From: Myxococcales bacterium
GTDB taxonomy: Bacteria > Myxococcota_A > Polyangia > Polyangiales > Polyangiaceae
Assembly: GCA_025351875.1 (NCBI GenBank)
Contig: JANXVA010000631.1
Coordinates: forward strand, 1 to 33,799
DNA: 33,799 bases
Reading direction: 5' to 3'
This document shows, in pieces, positions 22,349-33,799 of the stretch. A program made the translations under genes and the position numbers. The notes below the pieces were generated by a model, which did no database searches, was not told the DNA's origin, and saw nothing but the letters and a program-made list of their open reading frames with translations. Position 1 is the stretch's first letter. Each line of letters starts with the position of its first letter.

Positions 22349-22876
22349 TCAGCGATCGGTGCGAGAGAGCTCGTCCGCAAGCGCGGAGAGGACGGCGCGC
22401 GCTGTCTCGACCTGGTCGGGCTCGAGGCGTGAGAGTGCGCGACGAACTGCGGCTTCGATGGTCCCGGCCTGGGTGCCGTCGATCTTCCCGCCCTCGCCCG
22501 TGAGCGTGAAGTGGGCGATGCGCGCATCCGCGGCGTCGCGCTCGCGATGCACGTAGCCGCGCTCGACGACGCGTTTCAGCACACCTGTGAGCGTGCTCGG
22601 GTGCACGTGCAAGAGCTCCGCGAGGCGACCCGCTGTGACGGAAGGGAAACGACCGATGAGGCGGATCACGACACGCTGCATCCCGGTGACGCCGAGCTCG
22701 ACCTCCATCCGCTTCGAGCGGCGCTGGAGCCCGTGATCGGTTGCCCACAACAGGCGCATGAAATCGAGGGCGGCGCCGAGCGCCTCTACCTCGCCATCGG
22801 TTGGCGCCTTCGCCGGGCGACTGCTGCGCGACGCGGTCGGCTGCAAGGATCCCGAGAGGGCGCGGTTCGTGCTCAC
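22349..22876 (-). CDS. MarR-family transcriptional regulator
   Basis: The 175-aa protein has a MarR-type winged helix: GVTGMQRVVIRLIGRFPSV, the recognition helix region LLHVHPSTLTGVLKRVVERG, then the wing YVHRERDAADARIAHFTLT and the usual TGEG. C-terminal helices for dimerisation follow. The first 35 residues are Ser/Arg-rich. The GTG at 22876 overlaps the stop of the radical SAM gene (GTGA), so the two are translationally coupled. An ATG further upstream would run through that gene out of phase and is rejected. The regulator may control its own operon and the phosphatase downstream, where dyad repeats lie. The ligand is unknown. Confidence 0.88.
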   Translation of the reverse strand: MSTNRALSGSLQPTASRSSRPAKAPTDGEVEALGAALDFMRLLWATDHGLQRRSKRMEVELGVTGMQRVVIRLIGRFPSVTAGRLAELLHVHPSTLTGVLKRVVERGYVHRERDAADARIAHFTLTGEGGKIDGTQAGTIEAAVRRALSRLEPDQVETARAVLSALADELSRTDR

Positions 22877-24783
22877 GTCTCGAGGACCCGCAGGCGCACG
22901 CGCGCCTTCTCGACCGGCTTGCCGGCCACCGCGGGCGTCGCGCTCTCCGCCATCACCACGGTACCGAGCGAGGGCGGCAGCGAGAGGTCCTGGCCCTTCG
23001 CGTAGACGGGGTGACGACCGTTCGCCTTGTACCAATCGGCGACGCTCGCCGTAGCCTTCATCTTCTCGATGACCTGCCGCCAGCCGACGCCCGTGTTGTA
23101 GGCGCAGAAGCTGATCTCACCCATCTGCGTGCCGTAGGGGATGATGCACATCTCGGTGCGGCGAAAATCGTAGTTGAACAGATCCTGAAACCACATCCCG
23201 GCGACGAAGAGGATGCGCCACTCGAACTCGTGGGCGTCGCTCTCGTGCTCGCCGATCTTCTTTCCGCGAGCGCCTGTCTGGCTGAAGAACTGCTTCATCA
23301 GCACGGGGAAGCTCACCGGCGCGCGGTCCGCGTCGAAGTTCTTGAGCATCGCGACCGCGACCTCGGCGATCGTGATCGTGCGGCCCTGCGCGGCGTCGGT
23401 GATGTCCTGGATGTCCTGGAGCAGCTGCTCGAGATCGAGGAACTCCGTGACGGGGATCGCCTGCTTCGTCGTCTTGTGGACGAAGATGGCCGTGCCGATC
23501 CCGCAGTTGGGGTGACAGCCGCACTTCATCGAGCCCCAGTCGGCGCTCTCGCCGAGGATGGTGTCGGTGAGATCGCTGAAGGGGCCCATCGCCGAGAGCG
23601 GGAACCAGTCGCGCATCGGCTCGGTGATGCCGGACTGCTTCTTGATGTCGTGTGCGAGGTGGCTGAGCGTGTAACGCTGCTTCTCGCGGAGCTCGTCGGT
23701 GATGTCCTCGTCCCGACCCGTGAAGCTCACGGGCTGGAAGCTGACGACCGTGACCTTGTCGGCATTCGCGATCGCGAAATCGACGATTTTACCGACCTGA
23801 TCGTTGTTCACGCCGTTGATGACGGTGACGACGAGAATGACGTCGACGCCGGCGGCATGGAGGTTCTCGATCGCGCGGACCTTCACGTCGAAGAGGTTGC
23901 CGATCTTCCGGTGCGAGTTCGACTCGTTGTCGACGCCGTCGAACTGGAGGTAGGCCATGCGGAGGCCCGCCTTCTTCGCGTTGTGCGCCAGCTCGGGGTC
24001 CTGCGCGAAGAGAACGCCGTTGGTCGCGCACTGCACGGCGAAGAAGCCGTTGGTGCGCGAGTACTCGATCGCCTTCAGGAAGTACGGCGAGAGCGTGGGC
24101 TCGCCGCCGGAGAACTGGATGCTCATCTGCCGGCGCGGCTGGACGGTGAGCGCGTCGTCCAGGATCTTCTGGATCTCTTCCCACTGGAGCTCGTGGACGT
24201 AGCCGACCTGGTTGGCGTCCATGAAGCAGGGATCGCACATCATGTTGCAGCGGTTGGTGAGGTCCACGGTGAGGACCGAGCCGCGACCGAACTTGATGCT
24301 GGAGCTCCCGTGCTCGCGGAGCTTGGTGAGCGGAGCGAGAAAATCGCGACCGGGATAGAGGTTCTCGAGGCGGCGAAGGAACTCGGGGTCCGTCGACATC
24401 ACGTCCTCGAAGTGCCCGTGCGTCGGGCAATCCTTGGTCATCACGACGCAGTTGACGCCGTTGATCTCCTTCTCGACGATGCTCGCCTTGATCTCGCCGG
24501 GGCGACCGTCGACGAGCTCGCGGAGATCTCGCTTCCCGCTGAGGATGTCCGTACGGACCTCCTTGACGCAACGCGGGCAGAGCGAGTCCGTCTGGCGCGG
24601 GAAGCCGAGCTGCGGGAATGTTCGTTCGCGGCGCTTGAGGAGCGGCGCCGGGGCCCAGGCGGGCTTGGCGGACGGGCGCTCGATGGCCCTGTTCAGGCGC
24701 TGGACCAGCGGCCAGACACCCTGCGCCGAACGGGTCAGGGCGCGAGTGATGACGCGGGTCGAGGTGGGGCGATCGAAGGGCAC
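22873..24783 (-). CDS. Radical SAM enzyme of the Tes/MJ0619-like family
   Basis: The 636-aa protein has the radical SAM motif CNMMCDPC (179-186) and GGEPT (226-230). Upstream is a zinc/iron-ribbon-like part: TDSLCPRCV (69-72) and KDCPTHGHF (119-125). After the barrel come CGCHPNCG (421-428) and MCIIPYGTQMGEISFCAYN (Cys546, Cys560), probable extra Fe-S ligands. This layout (SLCPxC, CPxHGxF, CxxxCxxC, CGCHxxCG) is what I recall of the MJ0619/Tes group. There archaeal Tes couples lipid tails to make tetraethers and bacterial relatives have been linked to membrane-spanning lipids. A lipid substrate is inference. The GTG at 24783 lacks a clear ribosome binding site. A coupled MarR gene follows, and an AgmX-like gene is divergent 53 bases away. 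Confidence 0.85.
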   Translation of the reverse strand: MPFDRPTSTRVITRALTRSAQGVWPLVQRLNRAIERPSAKPAWAPAPLLKRRERTFPQLGFPRQTDSLCPRCVKEVRTDILSGKRDLRELVDGRPGEIKASIVEKEINGVNCVVMTKDCPTHGHFEDVMSTDPEFLRRLENLYPGRDFLAPLTKLREHGSSSIKFGRGSVLTVDLTNRCNMMCDPCFMDANQVGYVHELQWEEIQKILDDALTVQPRRQMSIQFSGGEPTLSPYFLKAIEYSRTNGFFAVQCATNGVLFAQDPELAHNAKKAGLRMAYLQFDGVDNESNSHRKIGNLFDVKVRAIENLHAAGVDVILVVTVINGVNNDQVGKIVDFAIANADKVTVVSFQPVSFTGRDEDITDELREKQRYTLSHLAHDIKKQSGITEPMRDWFPLSAMGPFSDLTDTILGESADWGSMKCGCHPNCGIGTAIFVHKTTKQAIPVTEFLDLEQLLQDIQDITDAAQGRTITIAEVAVAMLKNFDADRAPVSFPVLMKQFFSQTGARGKKIGEHESDAHEFEWRILFVAGMWFQDLFNYDFRRTEMCIIPYGTQMGEISFCAYNTGVGWRQVIEKMKATASVADWYKANGRHPVYAKGQDLSLPPSLGTVVMAESATPAVAGKPVEKARVRLRVLET

Positions 24784-24836
24784 GGACGCACCCTATAACG
24801 AGCCGCGAGCAGGGAAAAGCCTGGCATGATGCGGGG

Positions 24837-25571
24837 GTGAAACCTCCTGTGAAACGCGGCGATGGACCCTCGAAGGGGGTCTCCGGCAAGCAGCTGATCC
24901 TCGGCTTGATCGGCGCCATCGTCCTCGTCGCGGGCCTCCTCTTCTGGGCCGGGATGACGGGCGGGAGCACGCACGTGCCGCCGTCGAAGGCGGGTGTTGG
25001 CTTCGAGAAGGACGACGCTGGCGCCACACCGAGCGCCTCGGGCAGCGCGGCGGGCCTGGCGGCGTGGGACGGCGGCGCGATCGCCGAGACGATTCACGAT
25101 CGGAAGGTCCGCGAGCAGCTGCGGCAACGGATCCTCGCGGGGTGGGCAGCCGGGTCCGACCCGGAGTCCGCGGCGGCCGCGAAGCAGGGTCGGTTCGTGC
25201 CCGCGCCGGTCAGCCCCGACGGCGGGGCCATGGACCCGAAGTACATCCAGGAGGTCGTCCGCGGTGACTTCATGCCGATGGCGAAGGGCTGTTACGAGGA
25301 GCTCCTCACGCGGAACAAGACGGCGCGGGGGCGCTTCGAGATGAGCTTCACGATCGTCTCGGACGCGAAGCTCGGGGCGATCGTCGAGGATGTCGAGGCG
25401 GATCACGGAGACAGCGGCGTCGCCGACGAGAGGATGACGACGTGCATGCGCGAGTCGCTCTCGACGCTCTCGTTTCGACCTCCGGCACACGGCGGCTACG
25501 TCACCGTCGTCTACCCGATCCTCTTCTCTCCGGACGACGAGGACGAACACGACGCGGGCCACAAGAAGTGA
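24837..25571 (+). CDS. AgmX/PglI C-terminal-domain membrane protein
   Basis: The 244-aa protein starts with GTG. A basic N-terminus is followed by one membrane helix (about 19-40, QLILGLIGAIVLVAGLLFW). A low-complexity Ala/Gly/Ser/Asp region and a periplasmic C-terminal domain come next. That domain has YIQEVVRGDFMPMAKGCYEE, RGRFEMSFTIVSD and MTTCMRESLSTLSFRPP. This is the TonB-like repeat seen at the C-terminus of AgmX/PglI gliding-motility proteins and in many short myxobacterial proteins; the cysteine pair is usual. The short form lacks the cytoplasmic zinc-ribbon and GYF parts of AgmX, so a gliding role is not implied. It is divergent from the radical SAM gene with only 53 bases between. 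Confidence 0.8.
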   Translation: MKPPVKRGDGPSKGVSGKQLILGLIGAIVLVAGLLFWAGMTGGSTHVPPSKAGVGFEKDDAGATPSASGSAAGLAAWDGGAIAETIHDRKVREQLRQRILAGWAAGSDPESAAAAKQGRFVPAPVSPDGGAMDPKYIQEVVRGDFMPMAKGCYEELLTRNKTARGRFEMSFTIVSDAKLGAIVEDVEADHGDSGVADERMTTCMRESLSTLSFRPPAHGGYVTVVYPILFSPDDEDEHDAGHKK

Positions 25572-25665
25572 CCGCTCGGTGCTTCAGTTCTGGTCGACGG
25601 TGAACTCCACCCCGTTCCGGATGAATCGACGAGCCGAAGGCCGCGGACCCGCTATCTTGTTACCG

Positions 25666-27831
25666 ATGGCTTTGCGTGGCCCGAGGCAGCTTCTCGTCGT
25701 CGTTTCATGCGCCGTGGCCACGATCGGCGCGTGCACGTCGGACCGCACGGCCACGGGGCCGGTCGTGCTCGGTGAGTCTTCGCAAGACACCCACGATCAC
25801 GGCAAGACGGCAAAAGTCTCGCAGGACCTCTCCGCGACGAACTTCTTCGGCACGAGCCTGCCCGCCAAGACGCTCGCGCTCACGTTCGACGACGGCCCCG
25901 GCCCGCGGACGAAGGAGCTCTCGATCTATCTGAAGTCCGTGAACATCAGGGCCGCGTTCTTCATGAACGGCGCGCGCCTCGCCGCGACTGCGCTGCCCAA
26001 CCCGAACGGCATCACAGTCGTCGGCGACCCGGCCGGCACGCTCGCGCAGGTGCTCTCGGACGGACACCTCGTCGCCAATCACACGACGACGCATCGCGAC
26101 CTCACGAACCAGGTGCCCGACGCGCAGCGCGTGCAGGAGCTCAGCGACACCGACACGGACATCGCAGGCTCGGTGTCGCCGGCGAACCACCTGCTCTTTC
26201 GCGCACCGTACGGCGCGTACAACGGGACGGTCTTCAGCACCCTCTCGGCGTCGACGATGAACAAGTACATCGGCCCGATCTACTGGGAGGCCGGCGGCTT
26301 CTCCGATCAGTACCCGACCAAGGCGGCGGACTGGGCGTGCTGGCAAGGAAGCCTCTACATGGGCGCCACCAAGGTCAACCTCGTTGCAGGCAGTCCCGGC
26401 TACGCGACGACGACGCAGTGCGGTGACGCGTACCTGACGGAGATCGCCTCCTTCGGGAAGGGCATCGTGCTCATGCATGATCCGTATGAGTGGGCCCAGG
26501 GCAGCACGGTCGACATGGTCAAGTACATCGTCCCGATCCTGATCGGGAATGGCTACTCGTTCGTACGCGTCGACGAGGTCCCCACCATCGCCGCCGCGCT
26601 TCCGCCGCCTCCGTGCCACGCGACGTGCGCAACGTGCTCGGGGCCGAGCGCGAACGAGTGCACGGCGTGCCTCGGCGGCCGCTACAAGAGCGGCGGCCAG
26701 TGCCTTGCTTGCTCGACGTGCAGCGCGAGCCAGTACCAGGTGTCTGCGTGCAGCGCGAACGCCGACGCCACCTGCGCCGCGTGCAATGCCGCCTGCGCGA
26801 CGTGCTCGGGGCCGAGCGCGACTCAGTGCACCAGCTGCGCGGGCGGCAAGTACCTGAACGGCGGCCAGTGCGTCGCGTGCAGCACCTGTGGCGCGAGCGA
26901 GTACCAGGTGTCCGCGTGCAGCCCGAATGCCAACACCGCCTGCGCAGCCTGCAGCGCGACGTGTGGGACGTGTACCGGCCCGAGCGCCACCGAATGCGCG
27001 AGCTGCACAGCCAACAAGTACCTCAGCGGCGGCGCGTGCACCGCATGCAGCGTGTGCGGGACGAGCACGTACCAGTCGGCCGCGTGCACCGCCGCGGCGA
27101 ACACCGTCTGCGGTGCCTGTGATGCGAGCTGCACGGCGTGCTCCGGCCCGAACCCGAACCAGTGCGGGAGCTGTCCGACGGGGTTCTTCCTGGGCGGCGG
27201 CGGCTGCAACGCGTGCAAGGTCTGCGAGATCGGCACCTTCCAGGCGACCGCGTGCACGACGACGGCGAACACACTCTGCACCGCGTGCCCGGCCGGCTCA
27301 TTCACCAAGGTCGCCGGCGCGACGACCTGCACCAAGTGCGAGCCGGGGACGACCTCGGCCGTTGGTGCGATGGCGTGTACCCCCTGCGCGGCCGGAACGA
27401 GCGCCTCCGCCGCGGGCGCCGCGAGTTGCACGCCGTGCGCGGGTGGCACCTCCGCCGCCGCCGCGGGCGCAGTCACGTGCTCGGCATGCTCCGCAGGCAC
27501 CACCTCCGCTCCCGGCGCCGTGGCCTGCACGGCGTGCGGCAGCTGCGACGACGGCAACGCGTGCACGGCGGATCGCTGCGACCCCGCGAACGGCTGCGTT
27601 CACGACCCGATCGCGAGCTGCGGCGCGGACTCCGGGACGTCAGGCGGGCTCCACGACGACGTCGAGGGAGGCCCAGCCCAGCCCGCCGCGTCCGACAACG
27701 GATGCAGCGTCACGGGCCCGCTCGGCCACTCCGGCTCCGGTCACGGTGCGCGCGGCCTGTTCTTCCTCGCCGCTCTCGGGATGGCGCGGCTCGTGCGACG
27801 CCGAAAGTCGGCGCGGCAGCACACGTGCTAG
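25666..27831 (+). CDS. Polysaccharide deacetylase with Cys-rich repeats and MYXO-CTERM-like tail
   Basis: The 721-aa protein has a lipoprotein-like signal (MALRGPRQLL to TIGAC, Cys23). Its NodB-type carbohydrate esterase 4 domain has LTFDDGPGP (Asp75, Asp76), the metal site NHTTTH (His139, His143), FRAPYG (Arg179) and VLMHDPYEW. It likely N-deacetylates chitin-like or peptidoglycan sugars on a metal ion. From about residue 311 come four 56-residue furin/TNFR-like Cys-rich repeats and then four 16-17-residue Cys repeats. The C-terminus has DNGCSVTG, a hydrophobic stretch and RLVRRRK. ATGs at 25621 and further upstream are in frame, but 25666 places the signal at the N-terminus. Both a lipobox and a sorting tail are present, which is unusual. 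Confidence 0.88.
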   Translation: MALRGPRQLLVVVSCAVATIGACTSDRTATGPVVLGESSQDTHDHGKTAKVSQDLSATNFFGTSLPAKTLALTFDDGPGPRTKELSIYLKSVNIRAAFFMNGARLAATALPNPNGITVVGDPAGTLAQVLSDGHLVANHTTTHRDLTNQVPDAQRVQELSDTDTDIAGSVSPANHLLFRAPYGAYNGTVFSTLSASTMNKYIGPIYWEAGGFSDQYPTKAADWACWQGSLYMGATKVNLVAGSPGYATTTQCGDAYLTEIASFGKGIVLMHDPYEWAQGSTVDMVKYIVPILIGNGYSFVRVDEVPTIAAALPPPPCHATCATCSGPSANECTACLGGRYKSGGQCLACSTCSASQYQVSACSANADATCAACNAACATCSGPSATQCTSCAGGKYLNGGQCVACSTCGASEYQVSACSPNANTACAACSATCGTCTGPSATECASCTANKYLSGGACTACSVCGTSTYQSAACTAAANTVCGACDASCTACSGPNPNQCGSCPTGFFLGGGGCNACKVCEIGTFQATACTTTANTLCTACPAGSFTKVAGATTCTKCEPGTTSAVGAMACTPCAAGTSASAAGAASCTPCAGGTSAAAAGAVTCSACSAGTTSAPGAVACTACGSCDDGNACTADRCDPANGCVHDPIASCGADSGTSGGLHDDVEGGPAQPAASDNGCSVTGPLGHSGSGHGARGLFFLAALGMARLVRRRKSARQHTC
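26633..27304 (+). repeat. Four in-gene 168-bp repeats encoding 56-residue Cys-rich units
   Basis: The CGTGCTCGGGGCC-type segment recurs at 26633, 26801, 26969 and 27137, an exact 168-base period. Each unit encodes CxxCxGPSxxxC, a GGxYL/K segment and CxxCxxSxYQ. Copies 1 and 2 are nearly identical and copy 4 is the most diverged, as expected from repeated local duplication. Shorter Cys repeats follow to about 27540. Confidence 0.85.
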
Positions 27832-29696: not shown

Positions 29697-30782
29697 TCAG
29701 GCGTCCGGCTTCGACGGCGACGCAGCGCGCATCTTCGAGCGCGACACGGCGGCGAGCTTCTCCTCGACCATCATGTCGGCGATGAGGTACGTCGGAGTGC
29801 CGGTCTTGGAGCTGCGGTCGGCGATCTCGAGGATCGTGTCGTAGATCTCGAGGGTCTTCTTGCGCGCCTTCTGGGCGTCGTAGCCGAGCACCTCCTGCGC
29901 GACGTTGACGAGCCCTCCCGCGTTGATGGCGTAGTCGGGCGCGTAGAGGATGCCGCGCGCGTGGAGGTCGTCACCGTGGCGGGGCTGCGCGAGCTGGTTG
30001 TTCGCGGCGCCCGCGACGATCTTCGCGACGATGCGCGGGATCGTGGTGTCGTTCAGGGCCGAGCCGAGGGCGCACGGGGCGATGACGTCACAGGGCGTCT
30101 CGAAGATCTTGTCGAGGGGCACGACGGTCGCACCGAACTCGCGCGTCGCGCGCTCGGCCTTGAGCGGGTCGACGTCCGCCACGGAGAGCTTCGCGCCGGC
30201 GATGTGGAGCTCGTTGCAGAGGTGGTAGCCGACGTGACCGACGCCCTGGACGGCGACATGGACGCCCTCGAGCGAGTCGCGACCGAGCTTTGCCTTCACA
30301 CACGCCTCGATGCCGCGACGCACGCCGAGCGCAGTGAAGGGCGACGGATCGCCGGAGCCGCCGCGCGCGATGTCGACGCCCGTGACGTGCTTGGTGACGC
30401 CGTGGAGGATCTCCATGTCCTCGAGGCCGGTGCCGCTGTCCTCGGCCGTGATGTAGTGGCCGCCGAGGTTGTCGACGAAGCGACCGAACGCGCGGAAAAG
30501 CGCGACGCGATCGAAGTGCTGCTTCGGACGGATGAGGACGCTCTTGCCGCCACCGTGCGCGAGGCCGGCGAGCGCGGCCTTGTAGGTCATGCCGCGCGCG
30601 AGGCGAAGCGCGTCGACGAGCGCATCTTCATCGGTGTCGTACGGGAGGAAGCGACAGCCCCCGAGCGCGGGGCCGAGCCGCGAATCGTGGATGGCGATGA
30701 TGGCCTTCAGGCCGGTCGCCTTGTCGTGGCTGAAGTGAACGTCGCCGTAGTCGTACGCCTTGAGATGTCCAAAGAGATCCAT
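29697..30782 (-). CDS. Leucine-dehydrogenase-type Glu/Leu/Phe/Val dehydrogenase
   Basis: The 361-aa protein matches bacterial leucine dehydrogenases in length and numbering. GMTYKAALAGLAHGGGK carries Lys68 and Lys80, the substrate and catalytic lysines of the Bacillus enzyme. GPALGGCRF precedes them, and GVHVAVQGVGHVGYHLC is the NAD Rossmann loop. PCALGSALND and GAANNQL follow. It oxidatively deaminates branched-chain amino acids to 2-oxoacids with NAD, or runs in reverse; in myxobacteria this can feed iso-branched fatty acid supply, which is inference here. The ATG at 30782 (MDLFGHLKAYDYGDVHF) fits the family, whereas a frame extension to 30932 would translate the tandem repeats. Cytoplasmic. 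Confidence 0.92.
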   Translation of the reverse strand: MDLFGHLKAYDYGDVHFSHDKATGLKAIIAIHDSRLGPALGGCRFLPYDTDEDALVDALRLARGMTYKAALAGLAHGGGKSVLIRPKQHFDRVALFRAFGRFVDNLGGHYITAEDSGTGLEDMEILHGVTKHVTGVDIARGGSGDPSPFTALGVRRGIEACVKAKLGRDSLEGVHVAVQGVGHVGYHLCNELHIAGAKLSVADVDPLKAERATREFGATVVPLDKIFETPCDVIAPCALGSALNDTTIPRIVAKIVAGAANNQLAQPRHGDDLHARGILYAPDYAINAGGLVNVAQEVLGYDAQKARKKTLEIYDTILEIADRSSKTGTPTYLIADMMVEEKLAAVSRSKMRAASPSKPDA

Positions 30783-30810
30783 CGGGCGTGGTTCGTACCA
30801 CGGGACCCGC

Positions 30811-30879
30811 GCGGCTCGGCAAGCGAGAACGGCGCGGCTCGGCAAGCGAGAACGGCGCCGCTCGGCAAGCGAGAACGGC
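30811..30879. repeat. Three tandem copies of a 23-bp repeat
   Basis: Units start at 30811, 30834 and 30857 (GCGGCTCGGCAAGCGAGAAC plus GGC). Copy 3 differs by one base near its start. Inside each unit CTCG and CGAG flank GCAAG, a small dyad. The array lies 29 bases upstream of the leucine-dehydrogenase start (minus) and about 100 bases before the small lipoprotein (plus), so it may be an operator array or a slippage product. Confidence 0.9.
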
Positions 30880-30979
30880 GCTGCGCGGGTCGCGTCACGC
30901 AGCACTGAGGTACGCGCGCTCGATGGCGCCATGCGTCACGTTCGCGCGCGTGCGTCCGGGTTCGCCTATCCTCTCGCGC

Positions 30980-31336: not shown

Positions 31337-32398
31337 TCAGTGACCGTGCGGGTCGGGCATACCGTGAGGCATCTGCATGCCCGGCGGCATCTGCATGCCC
31401 GGTGGCATCCCCATCGGCATCGGCGGACCGCCCTTGCCGGCGTCGGCTCCGGCGTCCTTCGGCCTCTGGAACTTGCTCGGCTCGGCGAGCGCCCAGTCCG
31501 CCGTGAACTGCGGGATGACGAAGACGGTCGCGTCGCCGTCCTTCTGCGCGTAGCGCGACGTACCCGTGGAGGTCTTGCCGACCTTGAGCACGTACTTGCC
31601 CGCGCCGTCCTTCAAGTTGATCGTCACCGTGGACTCGGGGCTGTCGAGGCCCGTGTCCGCGGGCGTCTTGCCGTCGCCGAAGTCCTCGGCGTTGAGCGCC
31701 TTGAACGCGCGGACCGCGTCCTTGACCTTCTCGCCGTCGAAGTCCGCGATCGCCTTGCCCTTGGCGGTGCCGGCCCAGTTCTCACCCTTCGTGAACGAGA
31801 GATCTCCGCTCTTGTTCGCGATGGTGACCTGCGTGGCGTTCGCGTCGTCGAACTTGAAGATCTCCGTGTCGCGCCAGCCCTTGAGCTCGCGCGCGTAGAG
31901 GTAGCTCGAGTAGCCGGCCGCCGTGTAGATGCCCGGCTTGCCCTCGACCATGACCATCTGACCGCGCGCGCCCGATTTCCCGAAGCTCGCGTCGACCTTC
32001 TTGTCGGCGCCCTTGGACGCGACGACGTGGACGGCCTTGTCCTTGTCGAACTGGAACTCCTTCTTCTGGTCCTCGGAGGGCGCCGCAGCGATGACCTCCT
32101 TGACCTTGAGCTCCTTCATGTTGTCGAGCAGCTGCTTGACGTTCGCCTGGTTCGCCGGGGCGACGACGGGCTTGGTCACCTCCCACTTGTCGCCCTTCTT
32201 CTCGAGGACGACGTCGCCCTTTTCGGCGTTCGTGATCGTGATCTTGTCGATGTCGTCGGTCGCCTTGATTTCAGGGAGATCCGCGGACGTCGTCGTCGCG
32301 GTTCCCTTCGTCGCGTCGTCCTTGGACACCTTGTAGACGGCGCCACCGAGAGCGGCGAGCACCACCACACCAATCCACAGCTGGGTCGAGCGTTCCAT
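31337..32398 (-). CDS. DUF4340 membrane-anchored protein with Met/Pro/His-rich tail
   Basis: The 353-aa protein has one N-terminal membrane helix (about 7-24, LWIGVVVLAALGGAVYKV). Repeated beta-strand modules of the DUF4340 type follow: DKITITNAEKGDVVLEKKGD, VKQLLDNMKELKVKEVIA and SSYLYARELKGWRDTEIF. Residues 328-353 are a Met/Pro/Gly/His tail (PMPMGMPPGMQMPPGMQMP, then HGMPDPHGH). DUF4340 genes usually sit with GldG/ABC-2-type genes, as here. The GldG-like stop is 15 bases upstream, giving one operon. Its role is unknown, presumably periplasmic support of that ABC complex. The tail could bind Cu or other soft metals; this is untested. Confidence 0.85.
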   Translation of the reverse strand: MERSTQLWIGVVVLAALGGAVYKVSKDDATKGTATTTSADLPEIKATDDIDKITITNAEKGDVVLEKKGDKWEVTKPVVAPANQANVKQLLDNMKELKVKEVIAAAPSEDQKKEFQFDKDKAVHVVASKGADKKVDASFGKSGARGQMVMVEGKPGIYTAAGYSSYLYARELKGWRDTEIFKFDDANATQVTIANKSGDLSFTKGENWAGTAKGKAIADFDGEKVKDAVRAFKALNAEDFGDGKTPADTGLDSPESTVTINLKDGAGKYVLKVGKTSTGTSRYAQKDGDATVFVIPQFTADWALAEPSKFQRPKDAGADAGKGGPPMPMGMPPGMQMPPGMQMPHGMPDPHGH

Positions 32399-32413
32399 CG
32401 TTTCTAGGTCCTG

Positions 32414-33799
32414 TCAGGCGAGCGAAACGTTTTCGCGCGAGGAGATACGGCGGCGCCAGAGAATGACGCCGAAGAGAGCGAAGAGCAGCGGCAGACCGAG
32501 GACGAGCGTGCCCTCGACCCAGTGCTGCGTGCGCTTGCGCTCCTTCTTCATGGTCTCGTCCTGCTTCTTGATCTGCTCCTCGCTCATGTCGTCGAAGTTG
32601 GGCTTCGAGACGTCGCCGTAAGCGAGGCCGGGCTCCTGGAGGATCTTCGCCGAGACGGCGAGGAGATCCGTATCGCCGGTGACCCAGTCGAGCATGTTCT
32701 TGAAGACGAGGATGGTGTTGGTCAGGATCTGCTGCGCGTAGGGCATCGCGAGCTGCTGGAGCATCTCGTCGCCGCCGCCGCCCGGCATCATCATGCCCAT
32801 CTGTCCCATGTCCGGGCCGTTACCGGCGCGGGCGAAGGGGTTCGCGAAGAACTGCGAGGACGAGATGACGAGGATGCGGCCGTTGTTCGCCGCGACCGCG
32901 GGGGTCTCGACGCCCATCTTGTCGCCCTCGGGGAAGGCCGTCTTCAGCTTGCCCTCGACCGTCGCGGCGAGGTTGTACTGGCTGAACTCGCCCTTCGGAC
33001 GCCACTGGCGCATCGGCTTCATGTCGATGGTGTCGCCGGTCTCGCGGAGGGTCTTCGGCGTGGTGCGCGCGAGGACCTTGAACTGCGCGCCGCAGGGCTT
33101 GCCCGCGGGGCACGCGGCGGCGGCCGCCGACACTTCCGGCTGCTTCTCGGGGTGCATGACGAGCGACGAGGCGAACGGGAACGGGACCTGCGAGATCCGG
33201 AAGAACGCCGCGAAGCCGGTGTCGAGCAGCTGCTCGTCGCCGGTGAAGCGGAAGTCGTCACGGACGTCGTGGAGCGGCGGGAAGCGCATCGTCTGCGGGC
33301 CGCCCTGCGTGAAGACGTTCACGCGGAAGGGCCGACCGAACTCGAGGAGCGCGTCCTTGCGCATCTCGATGCCGTAGCCGCCGAGGAGCTTCTCGAGGCC
33401 GTGGGTCGCGAGCGCGCCGTTCATCGTCGCGTCGCTCGCCTTGACGTTCACCGCGCTGGCGATGACCGCGAGGCTCTTGCCGCGCATGACGAACTGGTCG
33501 ATGCGGCGAAGCTCCTTCTCGGAGAGATCCTTCGCGGGCTGCGTGATGATCATGCCGTCGAGCGTCTCGTCGACCTCGGCGTCGCCGTTCTTCAGGTCGA
33601 CGTCGACGAACTGATAGAACGGAAAGTACTGGGTGACGATGCCCTGGAGCGTCGGCTTCTGACCGCTGTTCGCGGCGACGAGGTTCGCCTCCGAGAGCTT
33701 CATCTCGTCGTGGCCGGTGAGCAGGCCGATCTTGTGCTTGAGGCTGTCGCCCTTGTCGCGGACCTCACGAATCTTGTTCGTGATCCAGAACTCCATGCC
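32414..33799 (-). CDS. GldG-like ABC-complex component, partial (5' end outside window)
   Basis: At least 460 codons are visible. The frame is open at the right edge, so MEFWITNKI near 33796 is probably internal. The protein resembles the GldG / PF09822 group (ABC-2-associated auxiliary transport proteins). It has KHKIGLLTGHDE, LDGMIITQPAKDLSEKELRR and IDQFVMRGKSLAVIASAV in an alpha/beta domain. The last 35 residues hold a membrane helix, GTLVLGLPLLFALFGVILWRR. A Met/Gly-rich segment, MGQMGMMMPGGGGDEM, lies near 32780. In Bacteroidetes GldG acts with GldA and GldF in gliding. In myxobacteria such complexes are usually uncharacterised, and a gliding role is not implied. An ABC permease and ATPase are expected upstream, outside the window. 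Confidence 0.83.
   Translation of the reverse strand, partial: GMEFWITNKIREVRDKGDSLKHKIGLLTGHDEMKLSEANLVAANSGQKPTLQGIVTQYFPFYQFVDVDLKNGDAEVDETLDGMIITQPAKDLSEKELRRIDQFVMRGKSLAVIASAVNVKASDATMNGALATHGLEKLLGGYGIEMRKDALLEFGRPFRVNVFTQGGPQTMRFPPLHDVRDDFRFTGDEQLLDTGFAAFFRISQVPFPFASSLVMHPEKQPEVSAAAAACPAGKPCGAQFKVLARTTPKTLRETGDTIDMKPMRQWRPKGEFSQYNLAATVEGKLKTAFPEGDKMGVETPAVAANNGRILVISSSQFFANPFARAGNGPDMGQMGMMMPGGGGDEMLQQLAMPYAQQILTNTILVFKNMLDWVTGDTDLLAVSAKILQEPGLAYGDVSKPNFDDMSEEQIKKQDETMKKERKRTQHWVEGTLVLGLPLLFALFGVILWRRRISSRENVSLA

Follow-up and report, generated by a model that had tools for sequence, protein, structure and literature searches.

A branch of Tes-clade radical SAM enzymes without the N-terminal auxiliary cluster motif in Polyangia and Acidobacteriota: candidates for lipid-tail coupling

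Introduction

Which reaction does a Tes-like radical SAM enzyme perform in a soil-type bacterium of the Myxococcales, and does the overlapping gene of a MarR-family regulator say anything about it? In most of the Acidobacteria studied, iso-diabolic acid is one of the main constituents of the membrane; the responsible enzyme was called unknown in 2022, in a study which also reported two Tes homologs in S. usitatus (PMC10087280). Bacterial Tes homologs are thus already known. Zeng et al. proposed them for the synthesis of branched tetraethers, and a homolog of 32% identity was described in E. aggregans (PMC8941075). Since 2022, both Mss and bacterial Tes homologs have been proposed as the iso-diabolic acid enzyme, Tes without proof; the activity of the bacterial Tes homologs is stated to be unproven, and in the literature found no activity is given for any of them (PMC11868695), nor are there lipid data for Polyangia.

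The stretch of DNA analyzed here (the window) has 33,799 bases and is one contig (C772) of a draft genome of 8.9 Mb in 805 contigs; all positions refer to it. An earlier note, made from the sequence alone, had proposed that it encodes a Tes/MJ0619-like enzyme which may modify lipids and is coupled to a MarR regulator.

Results

Identity and fold of the enzyme

The enzyme gene covers positions 22873..24783 of the minus strand, begins with a GTG start codon at 24783 and encodes 636 amino acids. Both this open reading frame and its four-base overlap with the MarR gene, as described before, are present in the sequence, and so are the motifs SLCPxC, CPxHGxF, CxxxCxxC and CGCHPNCG as well as C546 and C560. 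The best phmmer match in PDB was the GDGT-MAS of M. jannaschii (Tes, 7TOL) with an E-value of 2.3e-63, all other matches being weaker than 1e-7. In NCBIfam, the top family was Tes (NF045702) with 335.7 bits, which is below the cut-off of 450 bits, followed by TrsS with 209; the window-type relatives also remain under this cut-off (307–365 bits). Pfam recognized Radical_SAM and Zn_ribbon_HMPTM (39.3 bits, cut-off 27), and neither a SPASM domain nor a peptide partner was found for the enzyme. The gene is single in its own genome (search at E 1e-20), and the protein is 57–87% identical to its relatives in the branch.

An AlphaFold2 model of the enzyme, based on 67 window and locus proteins, reached a mean pLDDT of 92.4. 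Compared to known structures, 7TOL was the sole full-length match (Z 45.3, 2.3 Å rmsd, 476 of 493 residues), with MoaA as the second structure at Z 21.7; Foldseek agreed on 7TOL as the best. The predicted structure therefore points to a GDGT-MAS fold over the full length.

Phylogeny

Two trees were calculated, one of 77 rows and a more careful one of 39 rows, with one archaeal Tes included and Mss left out. In both trees, the paralogs are separated from the Tes clade at 100/100. The window-type proteins form one clade (100/100) with a long stem of 1.2–1.7 changes per site, and this clade is nested in the bacterial Tes radiation, beside an intermediate acidobacterial group. A phylogeny outside the Tes clade had been named in advance as refuting the assignment; the protein falls inside this clade at 100/100. 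Together with the full-length match to 7TOL by phmmer and by the model, its position bears out the Tes/MJ0619-like assignment.

The TrsS-like paralogs of Myxococcota (relatives of NF045646) share the wider family, the rubredoxin-type motif and the radical SAM core, but belong to the separate clade; in most of them, the N-terminal cluster motif is retained and the positions of Met439, Tyr459 and C470 (MJ0619 numbering) are variable. Such TrsS-like genes occur two or three in tandem in Myxococcota and one acidobacterium (loci L036, L171 and L175; G275:C78, G053:C309, G237:C67 and G111:C586).

Conserved residues and a missing cluster motif

For the comparison of residues, 7TOL was renumbered on the basis of the printed alignment, and this numbering reproduces the published positions C9, C12, C33, C73, C77, C80, M439, Y459, Q268, S271 and R275 (PMC9433317). 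The conservation set consisted of 98 members of the window's branch, 97 of which reach the C-terminal residues, and was compared to 32 other family members.

A rubredoxin-type site of the form CX2C...CX2H is found at C69/C72/C119/H122 (SLCPRC and CPTHGHF; 24418..24579, minus strand), corresponding to C9/C12/C33/H36 of MJ0619, and contains a loop insert of about 22 residues in the alignment. The CX3CX2C motif of the radical SAM cluster reads CNMMCDPC (C179/C183/C186; 24226..24249, minus strand). The ligands of both sites are invariant (98/98), as are G145, Q268, S271, R275, H335 and C338 in MJ0619 numbering. The last of these, on the side of the C-terminal cluster, corresponds to C427 within CGCHPNC (23503..23523, minus strand), where two extra cysteines, C421 and C423, are likewise present in 98/98 each. 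Met530 (23194..23196, minus strand) corresponds to Met439, the labile ligand of the cluster, and the C-terminal cluster region (23104..23148, minus strand) holds C546, Y550 (the catalytic Tyr459) and C560. Wherever this part of the protein is present, these residues, including M439, C455, Y459 and C470 in MJ0619 numbering, are kept without exception (97/97 each). Since every catalytic cysteine is retained in 98 relatives from independent genomes (97/97 for the C-terminal part), the motifs of the enzyme are not due to chance.

One feature of Tes, on which the earlier note is silent, is missing. In place of the N-terminal auxiliary [4Fe-4S] motif CPxxCGLCxxH, the enzyme has the segment LREHGSSSIKFGRGS (24277..24321, minus strand), and, of the cluster ligands C73, C77, C80 and a histidine, the three cysteines are absent from the entire branch (0/98). 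In contrast, they are at least partly kept in 31 of the 32 other family members (C73 in 31/32, C77 and C80 in 30/32 each), and the full motif is retained by every archaeal-like bacterial Tes aligned, including the nearest sister group (L200–L205). A single loss on the stem of the window-type clade would explain these data. Further, a median of 64 residues precedes the first cysteine in the window's branch, and a long helix is predicted within this N-terminal extension (residues 7–33 of the enzyme).

Hence, the likeness to Tes/GDGT-MAS (MJ0619, MA_1486; 7TOL/7TOM) comprises the clade, the fold, the rubredoxin-type site, the radical SAM core with the SAM-contacting loop, and the cysteines, labile methionine and catalytic tyrosine at the C-terminal cluster. 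The window's branch differs from these proteins in the absent auxiliary motif, an extra invariant CxC before HPNC, about 64 instead of 8 residues (archaeal) ahead of the first cysteine, and the loop insert; the window protein is 28–30% identical to them and stays below the NCBIfam cut-off. The archaeal-like bacterial Tes of Acidobacteriota (472–619 bits to NF045702) are the nearest sisters in the tree, with approximately 33–38% identity to the window protein, but they keep CPxxCGLCxxH and have neither the N-terminal extension nor the loop insert nor the CGCHPNC form.

Regulator, promoter region and neighboring genes

The MarR-family regulator (175 amino acids; 22349..22876, minus strand; Pfam MarR_2, 47.3 bits) starts with a GTG at 22876, and its start and the stop of the enzyme gene share the four bases GTGA (22876–22873). 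The enzyme gene is located upstream, and in the window's genus the two genes are probably carried on one transcript. A MarR homolog adjoins the enzyme gene in eight of the eleven genomes of this genus which have the gene, the window's own included, and in no locus searched outside the genus. Immediately 5′ of the GTG start, a promoter-like segment CTCGTTATAGGGTGCGTCC is present (24784..24802, minus strand). It contains a TTATA/CTAA-like element, found at a similar distance in seven relatives of the same genus; the TTATA-type element is 10–15 bases ahead of the start codon in the window and in relatives. An element so near to the GTG suggests a leaderless transcript, judging from the base sequence. 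A MarR operator upstream of the enzyme gene was considered and rejected, as no operator-like palindrome common to the upstream regions of eight same-genus genomes was seen. The idea that the enzyme is induced by a membrane-related signal consequently has nothing behind it beyond the overlap, because MarR adjoined the gene in no searched locus outside the genus and the upstream regions share no palindrome. The adjacency of MarR is silent on the general role of the enzyme.

No gene recurs beside the enzyme gene across families, and no lipid gene is consistently adjacent. Conserved operon partners were, therefore, rejected, MarR having been found beside the gene only in the window's genus. Elsewhere in the window, an AgmX/PglI-type protein (24837–25571) is encoded next to a polysaccharide deacetylase that carries TNFR/ephrin-receptor-like cysteine-rich repeats at its C-terminus (25579–27831, plus strand). 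A dehydrogenase (29697–30932, minus strand) scored 357 bits to the tryptophan dehydrogenase ScyB (cut-off 600) and is found near the enzyme in several relatives. Positions 31337–33796 (minus strand) encode DUF4340 and GldG-like ABC auxiliary proteins of the kind known from gliding-associated transporters; they are conserved together in relatives.

The genome of the window also encodes a PF09989 (DUF2229) protein (G000:C293:1070-1765); PF09989 is presumably the domain of the ether-lipid enzymes PlsA/Ger. Of the Myxococcota genomes, 17/17 that have the window type also encode proteins with this domain, versus 119/265 of those lacking it; inside the family, the numbers are 14/14 versus 3/8. We take a two-gene ether-lipid pathway as a hint only, since kinship and genome size confound these counts and most PF09989 proteins have about 1220 amino acids.

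Distribution

Window-type genes were found in several strains of Sorangium cellulosum, in Minicystis rosea, Polyangium fumosum, a Labilithrix MAG and many further MAGs of Polyangia, in many Acidobacteriota and in one Latescibacterota MAG. Among 282 Myxococcota genomes, 17 are within the window-type score band (321–365 bits), and no genome has a match at or above the Tes cut-off. Among 247 Acidobacteriota genomes, 29 reach this cut-off with archaeal-like proteins and about 105 fall into the window-type band of 307–350 bits; types were counted here by score band, and the members inspected (L161–L168, L206) were all of the window type. By score, the window type is thus the commonest Tes-family type in the sampled Acidobacteriota. 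Two window-type copies of near-equal score are present in many acidobacterial genomes (G442, G375, G485, G477, G509, G450). In two related acidobacterial genomes (G410 and G457), which count as one independent observation, a window-type gene is located approximately 4–6 kb from an archaeal-like tes on one strand. The earlier note had singled out the presence of such an enzyme in this kind of genome. This presence is real, but it is no oddity of one genome, since members of the branch occur widely among Polyangia and Acidobacteriota.

Discussion

Lipid-tail coupling is the most likely role of the enzyme. We assign a probability of roughly 0.6 to the reading that it forms C(sp3)–C(sp3) bonds between lipid tails and thereby yields membrane-spanning lipids of the (iso-)diabolic type, with substrate and product inferred from its relatedness to Tes. 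Two membrane lipids would be held with their tail ends together, and a 5′-deoxyadenosyl radical from the CX3CX2C cluster would abstract a hydrogen from one acyl or alkyl tail, at its terminal carbon. A sulfur of the C-terminal [4Fe-4S] cluster would then hold the resulting carbon radical until a second radical tail attacks, by which two tails would become one membrane-spanning chain. The N-terminal auxiliary cluster would be dispensed with in this branch. Where the fatty acids of a bacterium are iso-branched, a tetraester or ether/ester lipid of the (iso-)diabolic acid type would be expected as the product.

Coupling of two tails is favored because the conserved parts are those which Tes uses for two hydrogen abstractions and for holding a radical on the C-terminal cluster (PMC9433317). 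All catalytic features to which the structure paper assigns a role (PMC9433317) are invariant, namely the radical SAM cluster, the SAM loop Q268/S271/R275, C338, C455, C470, Met439 and Tyr459, whereas three of these positions (Met439, Tyr459 and C470) are variable in the more distant paralogs. Ester lipids are plausible substrates, since the crystallized Tes, which has two lipid pockets, binds bacterial phosphatidic acid; the methanopterin-methylase role once proposed for MJ0619 was dismissed in the same work (PMC9433317). We also count in favor of coupling the placement in the Tes clade at 100/100, 7TOL as the only full-length structural match, the single copy in the window's genome with relatives of 57–87% identity, the location near an archaeal-like tes in the two acidobacterial genomes, and the frequency of the branch in Acidobacteriota, where iso-diabolic acid is made by most of the members studied. 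Against it, we count the score of 335.7 bits versus the equivalog cut-off of 450, the lost auxiliary cluster, the long stem, which leaves room for an altered substrate, the want of a consistently adjacent lipid gene, and one study in which S. usitatus had brGDGTs without detectable iso-diabolic acid (PMC10087280). The two types described here agree with the homologs reported for E. aggregans and S. usitatus, the named strains themselves being outside this comparison.

The same long stem, together with the N-terminal cluster loss, the new invariant C421/C423, the N-terminal extension and the loop insert, might instead indicate that a Tes-fold lipid enzyme activates an unreactive alkyl carbon with another outcome, i.e., an intra-lipid cross-link, a ring, a desaturation or a sulfur insertion. 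Gms and Grs, archaeal lipid radical SAM relatives, indeed perform other C–C closures (PMC11186832). Nevertheless, the parts linked to two-step coupling in Tes (C-terminal cluster cysteines and methionine, Tyr459) are invariant and the 7TOL fold is matched along the whole length, and we regard a different outcome as rather unlikely, though it is the strongest competitor of tail coupling.

Less probable still is that the enzyme is simply Mss, the membrane-spanning lipid synthase of bacteria, by a different name, and thus of no new function. Mss, whose sequence is outside this comparison, is proposed to catalyze the same reaction class in bacteria (PMC13274423); it performs the same kind of tail coupling, its models are reported to have the Tes architecture, and it is reported in Acidobacteria and Myxococcota (PMC13274423, PMC11868695). 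On the other hand, a Black Sea survey treats Tes and Mss matches as separate sets (PMC11868695). Moreover, our control genome, Thermotoga maritima, had no match to the Tes model. This species makes diabolic acid.

We consider it highly improbable that the enzymes of this branch no longer act on lipids but on a different substrate, either a peptide or some other large hydrophobic molecule. Such a shift would agree with the absence of conserved lipid neighbors and with bacterial members (PMC11868695) and same-phylum paralogs, some of them in tandem, that are biochemically uncharacterized. However, neither a SPASM domain nor a peptide partner was found, and by structure the enzyme is by far closest to a lipid enzyme, in which two lipid pockets are present (PMC9433317).

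Returning to tail coupling, we found no description of a sub-branch without the N-terminal cluster, of the CxCHPNC signature or of its spread in Polyangia in the literature, mostly open-access main texts. The sub-branch may tentatively be seen, at somewhat less than even odds, as the main coupling enzyme for iso-diabolic-type lipids of Acidobacteriota, with the Polyangia (Sorangium, Minicystis, Polyangium) as unrecognized makers of such lipids by a Tes without the N-terminal auxiliary cluster. Acidobacterial iso-diabolic acid is a precursor of the branched tetraethers used as proxies of past temperature. With its clear delimitation, its higher frequency in Acidobacteriota than that of the archaeal-like type and its presence in culturable Polyangia, the Tes sub-branch makes a direct test possible. 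If the enzyme is active, the possible sources of these lipids would extend to myxobacteria, and the chemistry of Tes would be able to do without the N-terminal auxiliary cluster.
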